Shown here: one piece after another, positions 13,705-16,845 of the stretch
How positions within the stretch are numbered: the first letter of the stretch is position 1
Layout: each line of letters starts with the position of its first letter
Assembly: GCA_002718035.1 (NCBI GenBank)
Contig: PBCX01000011.1
Location: 1 to 64,000, forward strand
Origin: Flavobacteriales bacterium
Lineage (GTDB): Bacteria > Bacteroidota > Bacteroidia > Flavobacteriales > TMED113
DNA: 64,000 nucleotides
Reading direction: 5' to 3'
Translations under genes and position numbers: made by a program
Notes under the pieces: generated by a model
Told to the model about the DNA's origin: nothing
Database searches by the model: none
Seen by the model: the letters and a program-made list of their open reading frames with translations, nothing else

Positions 13705-14280
13705 TTAAAAATAAAAATTCATTCTTATATAGCCAGTTCCACCTTCTAATAGAAAATTGATTTGTTCTGTAATTGATACAGTTGGTCCGTATGCATATTC
13801 TGCCCCAATAGCAATTTTTGATGCTATGAAATACTCACATCCAATAAAAATATGAGTTGAGAGAGAAGTAATGAAATCTTTTTCTTCCCCAATATCAACA
13901 TAATTCATCCCAACAAAACCTTCATATCCATAAAAACCTTGTAATCTTGTTTTACCTTTCCTTTTTTCAAGACCATAGCCAATACCAAATTCTAATTCCT
14001 CTGTTTGAGAATTAAAAAAAGCTCCAATTTTATATCGGTTTACAAAATTATCTTCAACCATTTTTTTTGCATATAAAAAAGTTCCATTATGAAAATTTAC
14101 GTCTATAGACTCACTATTTCCTGAAAAAATATTACCAAAAAAAGAAATAAAAGTACTAGCATCAGTACCAATTGACCAATCACCTTTCTCAGGTAAAATT
14201 GAGAAACCGTTTTTATTTACAATATTTTGAGAAATTGAAAAAGATGTAATTAGTAGAAATAAAGGGATTATTTTTTTCAT
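13705..14280 (-). CDS. Secreted/outer membrane beta-barrel-like hypothetical protein
   Basis: 191 aa; signal peptide LFLLITSFSISQ, amphipathic strands, C-terminal aromatic residues (IRMNFYF). Confidence 0.6.
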   Translation of the reverse strand: MKKIIPLFLLITSFSISQNIVNKNGFSILPEKGDWSIGTDASTFISFFGNIFSGNSESIDVNFHNGTFLYAKKMVEDNFVNRYKIGAFFNSQTEELEFGIGYGLEKRKGKTRLQGFYGYEGFVGMNYVDIGEEKDFITSLSTHIFIGCEYFIASKIAIGAEYAYGPTVSITEQINFLLEGGTGYIRMNFYF

Positions 14281-14364
14281 AATTAATTTTAAATAAAGAT
14301 CTATATTAAAAAGTTTGTAATTTAAAAATAGACCTAATAAATACCAACAAGAGAATGTTAATAC

Positions 14365-14894: not shown

Positions 14895-14969
14895 AATTAT
14901 AATTTTATTTGTTAAACAGGGCGAAAATAATTTATTTTAAAAGCGAAGTGAAAAAAAAATATTTGTTTT

Positions 14970-14991
14970 TTTAAACAACTATTTGTTTAAA
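14970..14991. promoter_or_regulatory. 22-bp dyad upstream of OMP member 1
   Basis: TTTAAACA-ACTATT-TGTTTAAA; 75 nt from the start codon; matches dyads at 15548 and 16174. Confidence 0.7.
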
Positions 14992-15007
14992 AGAAGAATA
15001 TAAAAAA

Positions 15008-15036
15008 AAAAAAGGAGGCAAATAGCCTCCTTTTTT
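15008..15036 (-). terminator. Terminator of the OMP gene at 15055-15471
   Basis: AAAAAAGGAGGC-aaata-GCCTCCTTTTTT perfect hairpin. Confidence 0.85.
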
Positions 15037-15054
15037 ATCAATCTTACTATAAGA

Positions 15055-15471
15055 TTATAGAGTAAATCTCAACGCCCAAGCTAACCTTGGAGTGAAATCT
15101 TGAATGTCATCTAACACAATCATAGGTTCGAATTGGAATTTCCAAAATCCCGTATCTAATGTCCATCCAGCAGCAGCTCCGATATTATAGTCAGATTCTG
15201 TCATTGAATCTGTTTTTGAAGCTGTAGTCATGGCTTGAATAAACATGCCGTCGCAAATACCGTAGTATCTAGCGCCAACTTGAAAATTATCCCAATCAGA
15301 CATACTAAGTGAAACCATAATATCATCAGTCATGTAATAACCAATGTTAGCTTCAGTATCTAAAGGCTTCGTGATATCTAAACTATTTGCGGCAAAAGAC
15401 ATTGAACCTTGCTGAGCAAAAGTAAATGTTGCAATCATTAAAAAAGCAACTAATGATGTTAACTTGTTCAT
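15055..15471 (-). CDS. Small outer membrane beta-barrel protein, OMP cluster member 2
   Basis: 138 aa; signal peptide MNKLTSLVAFLMIATFTFAQ; strongly similar to the 15679-16095 product (shared C-terminus FWKFQFEPMIVLDDIQDFTPRLAWALRFTL). Confidence 0.78.
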   Translation of the reverse strand: MNKLTSLVAFLMIATFTFAQQGSMSFAANSLDITKPLDTEANIGYYMTDDIMVSLSMSDWDNFQVGARYYGICDGMFIQAMTTASKTDSMTESDYNIGAAAGWTLDTGFWKFQFEPMIVLDDIQDFTPRLAWALRFTL

Positions 15472-15547
15472 AATTAAAGTTTTTTATAGTTAATTGCCCG
15501 CAAGTAAGTTATAATTGACTTTTTTTTTTTAAAAAAAAGATCAAATT

Positions 15548-15569
15548 TTTTAACAAGTTAATGTTAAAA
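15548..15569. promoter_or_regulatory. 22-bp dyad upstream of OMP member 2
   Basis: TTTTAACA-AGTTAA-TGTTAAAA; 76 nt from the start codon. Confidence 0.7.
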
Positions 15570-15627
15570 CAATGCGTAAAATATTCTTGATTTTTAATTT
15601 TACCAGATTTGTTTAAAGTCCTAATAA

Positions 15628-15660
15628 AAAAAAAGAGGATCTAAATGATCCTCTTTTTTT
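15628..15660 (-). terminator. Terminator of the OMP gene at 15679-16095
   Basis: AAAAAAAGAGGATC-taaat-GATCCTCTTTTTTT hairpin. Confidence 0.85.
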
Positions 15661-15678
15661 ATTTGATATTGTTAAAAA

Positions 15679-16095
15679 TTATAGAGTAAATCTTAACGCC
15701 CAAGCTAATCTTGGAGTAAAATCTTGAATATCATCTAAAACAATCATTGGCTCAAATTGAAACTTCCAAACACCAGTGTCTAGAGTCCAACCAGCTGCAG
15801 CTCCGATATTATATTCAGATTCTGACATAGCATCTGTTTTAACAGCTGTAGTAGTAGCCTGAATAAACATGTCATCAAAAATACCATAATATCTAGCTCC
15901 TACTGTAAAATTGTCCCAATCAGACATTCCTAAAGAAACCATAATATCATCTGTCATAAAAACACCGATATTAGCTTCAGTATTTAATGGTTGAGTAATA
16001 TCTAAACTGTTTGCAGCAAATGTCAATGATCCTTGCTGAGCAAAAGTAAATGTTGCAATCATTAAAGAAGCAACTAGTAATGTTAACTTTTTCAT
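15679..16095 (-). CDS. Small outer membrane beta-barrel protein, OMP cluster member 3
   Basis: ORF track starts at 16182, but internal Met30 at 16095 begins MKKLTLLVASLMIATFTFAQ, aligning with the paralogs; near-duplicate of member 2. Confidence 0.8.
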   Translation of the reverse strand: MKKLTLLVASLMIATFTFAQQGSLTFAANSLDITQPLNTEANIGVFMTDDIMVSLGMSDWDNFTVGARYYGIFDDMFIQATTTAVKTDAMSESEYNIGAAAGWTLDTGVWKFQFEPMIVLDDIQDFTPRLAWALRFTL

Positions 16096-16173
16096 AATAA
16101 ATTTAATTTTAATAGTTAATTGGTTGCAAGAAAATACTATTAATGATTTTTTTAAAGTAAAAAAAGTCGTTTT

Positions 16174-16195
16174 TTTAAACATCTTCTTGTTTAAA
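16174..16195. promoter_or_regulatory. 22-bp dyad upstream of OMP member 3
   Basis: TTTAAACA-TCTTCT-TGTTTAAA; 78 nt from the corrected start codon, 2 bp from the pcm stop. Confidence 0.7.
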
Positions 16196-16197
16196 AT

Positions 16198-16845
16198 TCA
16201 TTGCTTTTTTCTTAGGAAGGGAACAAATTTAAAATTTTTGTACTCTGAAATTAACTCATAATCATTTAATCCTGTCTTCAAAATCACCATCATATTTTGA
16301 GTATCTATACCAACAGGAATAACCAATATCCCTCCAATAATTAATTGTTTTTTAAGTTGATCAGGAACCTTAGGAGTCCCAGCAGTTACGATTATTTTAT
16401 CAAAAGGGGAATGGTCAGGTATCCCTAAATAACCATCTCCGTAAAATAATTTCACGTTAAGATTTAAGTTCAATAAATTTTTTTTTGCTGTTAAATAAAG
16501 ATCTTTATGCCTTTCGATTGAATAAACTCTACAACCAATTTTAGATAAAATAGCAGCTTGGTATCCAGAGCCAGTTCCAATTTCCAATACTTTATCACCC
16601 TCTTTAGGAGAAAGAAGCTCAGATTGAAAGGCAACAGTATAGGGGTTTGATATAGTTTGATCACACCCTATTGGAAATGCATTATCTTTATAAGCAAATT
16701 CAATGAAAGCAGAATCTAAAAAAAAATGCCTTGGAACTTTCTTCATTGCATCTAAAACTCTGACATCTCTAATATCTCTATCTATTAACCTATCAACCAT
16801 TTTAGCTCTCAAGCCTTTGTCTCTAAAAGAATCTATTTTTTTCAA
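16198..16845 (-). CDS. pcm: Protein-L-isoaspartate O-methyltransferase
   Basis: 215 aa; VLEIGTGSGYQAAILSKIG, QTISNPYTVAFQSELL. Confidence 0.92.
   Translation of the reverse strand: MKKIDSFRDKGLRAKMVDRLIDRDIRDVRVLDAMKKVPRHFFLDSAFIEFAYKDNAFPIGCDQTISNPYTVAFQSELLSPKEGDKVLEIGTGSGYQAAILSKIGCRVYSIERHKDLYLTAKKNLLNLNLNVKLFYGDGYLGIPDHSPFDKIIVTAGTPKVPDQLKKQLIIGGILVIPVGIDTQNMMVILKTGLNDYELISEYKNFKFVPFLRKKQ

Follow-up and report, generated by a model that had tools for sequence, protein, structure and literature searches.

A conserved 22-bp dyad upstream of small outer-membrane protein genes and of a candidate small RNA gene in a family of marine Flavobacteriales

Results

The outer-membrane protein cluster

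The window analyzed here, a stretch of 64,000 nucleotides from the genome of a Flavobacteriales bacterium, contains three genes, ompA-like, ompB-like and ompC-like, whose products are small, secreted and related to one another as paralogs (Table 1). A fourth gene of the cluster codes for a further outer-membrane protein (OMP)-like product, and a pcm-like gene is the upstream neighbour. The longer reading frame of the ompC-like gene, extending to 16182, begins within the operator described below and does not mark the gene start. The best PDB matches of the AlphaFold model of this protein were the barrels of OmpA and OprF, at E values of about 1e-3 at best, so that the likeness is a statement about the fold only. 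All 12 family (f1) genomes matched the OMP model, G003 and G007 only weakly. In the loci examined, synteny takes in pcm, the OMP genes, a gene for an OMP-like protein of 186-208 aa, smpB and a ZIP-type transporter gene. No gene for a transcription factor was noticed in the syntenic surroundings of the cluster, nor among the ten window and candidate proteins that were scanned.

In some relatives (L018, L025 and L070) the ompA-like proteins have segments with many His, Cys and acidic residues; together with the adjoining ZIP-type transporter gene, these make a link to metals possible.

Table 1. Features of the OMP cluster and of the candidate small RNA gene. Coordinates are those of the window except in the last row, which refers to contig C3 of the same genome; operators are given in minus-strand reading, and the scores of the perfect ones are from the profile search.
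Feature	Position	Strand	Remarks
OMP-like protein, 191 aa, fourth cluster gene	13705-14280	-	PF13505, E 8.7e-5, below curated cut-off
Fourth operator, imperfect, before the 191-aa gene	14342-14363	-	TATTAACA-TTCTCT-TGTTGGTA; 18.2 bits (OMP-site weight matrix)
ompA-like gene, small outer-membrane beta-barrel protein, 160 aa	14412-14894	-	signal peptide; weak OprF / OMP_b-brl_2 matches
Predicted -7 box, ompA-like gene	14922-14929	-	TATTTTCG, 51 bp from dyad centre
Operator, ompA-like gene	14970-14991	-	TTTAAACA-AATAGT-TGTTTAAA; orthologous sites in G001 and G002; 35.2 bits
ompB-like gene, small outer-membrane beta-barrel protein, 138 aa	15055-15471	-	
Predicted -7 box, ompB-like gene	15500-15507	-	TTACTTGC, 51 bp from dyad centre; inferred; one mismatch to TAnnTTGY (motif SM5, PMC9723704)
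Operator, ompB-like gene	15548-15569	-	TTTTAACA-TTAACT-TGTTAAAA; 37.7 bits
ompC-like gene, small outer-membrane beta-barrel protein, 138 aa	15679-16095	-	AlphaFold model, eight strands
Predicted -7 box, ompC-like gene	16126-16133	-	TTTCTTGC, 51 bp from dyad centre; inferred
Operator, ompC-like gene	16174-16195	-	TTTAAACA-AGAAGA-TGTTTAAA; 36.9 bits
pcm-like methyltransferase gene, upstream neighbour	16198-16845	-	synteny conserved
Candidate small RNA gene beside fumC	C3:156117-156269	-	dyad at C3:156248-156269 (L116 3013-3034)

Putative operators upstream of the OMP genes

Each of the three genes is preceded by a perfect 8-6-8 inverted repeat of 22 bp. An earlier note on this DNA had described these dyads with correct coordinates, 75, 76 and 78 nt from the respective start codons. 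All three proved real, and the count has to be extended by a fourth, imperfect copy in the same cluster, which scores 18.2 bits against a best background score of 13.7 bits in the window and is kept in seven of the eight loci checked. Perfect 8-6-8 repeats alone are not rare and arise by chance in AT-rich DNA, eight being seen in the window for a mean of 4.6 in Markov simulations; the pattern TTTWAACA-N6-TGTTWAAA had a mean of 0.0 in 40 simulations of the window. The genome scan that the note had proposed found exact copies at these three positions only in the 1.26-Mb genome (87% complete), where a reversed control pattern has no copies. Matches to the dyad with two mismatches in this genome were mostly coding or due to chance.

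The genes being paralogs, and two copies in one genus mate (G002) having near-identical upstream DNA, the dyads could be functionless leftovers of a tandem duplication that carried each gene along with its upstream region. Between the three genes of the genome under study, however, the arms are identical at 14-16 of 16 positions, the N6 at 2-3 of 6 and the following spacer at 14-20 of 37; because the arms were kept while N6 and spacer diverged, mere duplication is not enough to account for the dyads. This reading is further refuted by the same dyad, at the same spacing, before the unrelated small RNA gene described below, and we give it almost no credence.

Conservation of the dyad in relatives

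The exact pattern occurs three times in the genome under study and three and two times in its genus mates G001 and G002, always at orthologous OMP genes; almost all of the order's other genomes lack it. Comparison across relatives, which the earlier note had suggested, showed that the core TTWAACA-N6-TGTT is retained in all relatives having the OMP cluster, including the OMP orthologs of seven further genomes. The arms turn over between TTTAAACA and TTTTAACA within the genus, and elsewhere take the forms TTTTAACA-N6-TGTTAGTA or TATTAACA-N6-TGTTTGTA. At the outer pair, ±8, both sides change together more often than in shuffled partners (p = 0.001), and the half-site over 34 sites is TGTTWRWA. 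The OMP sites were picked by AACA-N6-TGT, so that part of the invariance of seven core positions among them follows from the selection itself; this circularity does not touch the outer positions, the spacing or five small RNA sites found through synteny. The covariation at ±8 and the conservation across several genera support the view that the dyad is a site under selection for binding a dimeric regulator.

Exact dyads in two genomes of another family (f11, G021 and G052) have no -7 box at 51 bp and were left out of the count; in both, TTTTAACA-N6-TGTTTAAA lies some 200 nt ahead of a conserved ORF of 75-78 aa (L016 and L017, position 1501).

Promoter architecture

Promoters of Flavobacterium carry TAnnTTTG at -12 to -5, and a related TAnnTTGY class is one base shorter (PMC9723704). 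Most OMP promoters have a recognisable TAnnTTTG-like box, and in these the distance from dyad centre to -7 box is 51-52 bp. The absence of any clear promoter, as first reported, thus holds within the genus, where the boxes are non-canonical, but not in the relatives, where TATATTTG is found at 51-52 bp from the centre of the dyad. Its position there served to place the box of the ompA-like gene in the window, with a predicted transcription start near 14917. No clear -7 box was found at 51 bp in the ompA-like promoter of G004, G009 and G011, or in the ompC-like promoter of G008 and G010. The box TAACTTGC of one genus mate (G001_B, L051), and those of the ompB-like and ompC-like genes in the window, resemble TAnnTTGY (SM5) of Flavobacterium psychrophilum (PMC9723704). 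A relocated ompA-like gene in G005 (contig C1, L059) still has the dyad, together with TATGTTTG as its box at 51 bp, and has a Fur-like protein among its neighbours.

With the -7 box at -12 to -5 (PMC9723704), the dyad centre falls at about -63, where a class-I activator would bind. This upstream, activator-like position is in line with the original suggestion that the promoters may be activator-dependent, and the class-I-like geometry suggests activation.

Two other uses of such a repeat were considered. It could be a repressor operator, whose protein would form a loop from its upstream position or block access to an upstream element, or an architectural site where DNA is bent. Dyads are common as repressor sites, and many OMP promoters have T-tracts between dyad and -7 box. 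The site nevertheless lies at least 40 bp upstream of the -7 box, without overlap, the constant helical phasing of 51-52 bp is typical of direct polymerase contact, and the sequence-specific arms oppose a general bending protein; repression or bending is an unlikely reading, if one that deserves to be kept in mind. It could also act as RNA, in a terminator or attenuator hairpin, being a perfect intergenic inverted repeat that can follow the GC-rich terminator of the preceding gene. Its arms are almost pure A/T, though, a separate GC-rich terminator precedes the dyad at the ompA-like gene, and it keeps a fixed distance to the -7 box that follows it; moreover, lying upstream of the predicted start, the dyad would not be part of the transcript. 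A role as RNA is accordingly highly improbable.

A candidate small RNA beside fumC

An order-wide search for the dyad found two more copies, in an intergenic region of G004 and of G009. Each stands, at OMP-like spacing, ahead of a unit some 100 nt long that contains an intrinsic terminator and an invariant block, TCAAATGAATATATGGGGGTATATTTATTCTGAA, which six genomes from four genera share letter for letter. Through synteny, a diverged homolog with equal dyad and spacing was found next to fumC in the genome under study and in four others. Of the 11 promoters so assembled, six were found by a match to the dyad or the RNA and five by fumC synteny only. They stand at an unrelated locus and therefore test the motif on genes not used to derive it; all 11 have the T of the -7 box exactly 51 bp away from the centre of the dyad. 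In one of them (G011, L107 1424-1459) two dyads overlap, 14 bp apart, as TGTTAACA-N6-TGTTAACA-N6-TGTTTTTT.

The candidate small RNA (sRNA) is about 90-115 nt long, and all 11 sequences have the intrinsic terminator. Six long forms gave folding z values of -4.4 to -7.9. The arms of stem 2 are complementary everywhere and differ in sequence by genus (GATTACC/GGTAATC, AATTACTC/GAGTAATT and GCTAGTT/AACTAGC are examples), and its loops mostly contain TTCT; this complementarity was read by hand, the automatic alignment having left stem 2 unaligned. A covariance model found the sRNA in 11 of the 12 family genomes and in no genome among 186 from the order's other families (198 searched); the twelfth family genome, G006, has no fumC match in its assembly. 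A reading of the invariant block as a peptide was rejected, since a length change between genera, GGGG to GGGGG, shifts the frame. Rfam gave no match above the gathering threshold, and a permissive search of four loci gave two sub-threshold, chance-like matches. Having its own predicted promoter, an intrinsic terminator, a covarying structure and no conserved ORF, the unit beside fumC is a candidate for a new, previously undescribed sRNA family. Pairing of the sRNA with the OMP mRNAs was unsupported, duplex energies putting the three OMP mRNAs 14th, 24th and 40th of 66 window genes.

Extent of the proposed regulon

When the 12 genomes were searched with a profile of dyad, spacer and -7 box, all 28 matches of 30-46 bits were OMP or sRNA promoters, and everything else scored at most 20 bits, including two known weaker sites. 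The number of targets is a lower bound, because the profile missed the sites of the fourth cluster gene. The weight matrix, with which 424 kb of the 1.26-Mb genome were scored (background scoring took in about 360 kb), found six sites of at least 17 bits, the next being at 12.7: four in the OMP cluster, the sRNA and one at C1:8661. The last lies within the tgt coding sequence, has no convincing -7 box and was put down to chance. The regulon would consequently be small, with at least five promoters in the 424 kb scored.

A loose search for AACA-N6-TGTT with TAnnTTTG returned four OMP matches amid chance matches and no new conserved target. A weak dyad at C11:42267-42288 of the same genome (L109 968-989), TATAAACA-N6-TGTAAAAA, has TAAATTTG 52 bp from its centre; lying upstream of a gene for a 192-aa PKD-domain protein, it possibly marks a further member.

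Searches for a possible regulator

The earlier note had likened the site to those of the CRP/FNR superfamily while observing that the half-site is not TGTGA. The likeness holds for the site, in that the 22-bp, 8-6-8 geometry and a position near -62 (about -63, against about -61.5) fit a class-I CRP site. It fails for the protein: the HTH_Crp_2 domain (PF13545) was found in none of eight family genomes tested (52-95% complete) and in all four outgroup genomes, at 4-7 per genome, and the half-site, TGTTWRWA, differs from both TGTGA (CRP) and TTGAT (FNR). That the dyad binds a regulator of this superfamily is very unlikely. Any single draft genome may lack a gene through incompleteness, but that a shared regulator should be missing from all eight is unlikely.

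GerE (PF00196, LuxR/NarL) was absent from all 12 family genomes and present in 12 of 14 controls. Trans_reg_C (PF00486, OmpR/PhoB-type) was found in 5 of 12, and was absent from the genome under study (87% complete) and from the most complete one (G004, 95%), both of which have sites. The first two classes being absent from the genomes searched and the OmpR type patchy, all three were rejected as the regulator. Two HTH_3 matches that were inspected (in the genome under study and in G004) are ParB; the others are mostly of similar length, with one of 77 aa in G005.

Discussion

One dyad stands at one exact distance before both the OMP genes and the sRNA gene, and one regulator probably controls both. 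The reading that we favour, and think likely, is that a dimeric activator bound at about -63 controls a small regulon in a class-I-like manner, co-activating OMPs and sRNA. A homodimeric DNA-binding protein would bind the 22-bp dyad through half-sites TGTTWRWA held 6 bp apart and, centred at about -63, would activate sigma-A-type promoters. In this marine family the regulon would consist of the four-gene OMP cluster beside pcm and the conserved sRNA beside fumC, so that a single switch would turn on membrane proteins and sRNA, in the way of enterobacterial envelope regulons, the sRNA presumably being expressed and regulating mRNAs. The parts of this proposal legible in the DNA itself are the site, its conservation, the spacing to the -7 box, the architecture shared with the sRNA gene and the conserved structure of the predicted RNA.

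Those of the usual classes of global activator that were searched for proved absent or patchy, so that another kind of regulator would do the job. A wider and more tentative proposal, which we would not yet expect to hold in full, is that streamlined marine flavobacteria might have a minimal envelope regulon under a factor outside CRP/FNR, LuxR/NarL and OmpR, from a protein family without earlier ties to envelope control. This factor would activate small beta-barrel OMPs jointly with a new sRNA that is specific to this bacterial family and tunes other mRNAs, and the circuit would be a separately evolved Bacteroidota counterpart of sigma-E/RybB/MicA and OmpR/OmrAB. Regulators are very few in streamlined ocean bacteria, so that a site retained across genera points to a still-needed decision at the cell surface. 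The analysis yields a precisely defined operator, the architecture of its promoters and a short list of targets, among them a new candidate sRNA family.

In the enterobacterial sigma-E regulon, which includes the sRNAs MicA and RybB, OMPs are repressed by sRNA. The circuit proposed here is similar in that a single regulatory input for OMP homeostasis is joined to a small RNA. It differs in that OMP and sRNA genes have in common a dyad upstream of a sigma-A-type -7 box, whereas sigma-E acts through an alternative-sigma promoter, and in that OMPs and sRNA are apparently driven together; pairing of the sRNA with the OMP mRNAs was not detected. OmpR controls porins and the sRNAs OmrA and OmrB, and CRP controls Spot 42; these cases share with the circuit proposed here a transcription factor that works through an upstream site both on an sRNA and on genes for OMPs or metabolism. 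Unlike there, the repeats here are inverted, not direct, CRP/FNR domains are absent from the genomes tested and the OmpR type is found in 5 of 12. The half-site letters are similar to those of the PrfA box, TTAACA-N2-TGTTAA, with a spacing of N2 in place of N6, and to those of the E. coli PhoP box, TGTTTA-N5-TGTTTA, a direct repeat in place of an inverted one; both are resemblances only. Closer in phylogeny is Rfp18, an sRNA of Flavobacterium linked to protease mRNAs (PMC9723704). Like it, the candidate described here would be a structured intergenic sRNA of Flavobacteriales; among the genomes searched it was found in one marine family only, with no match in the other families.
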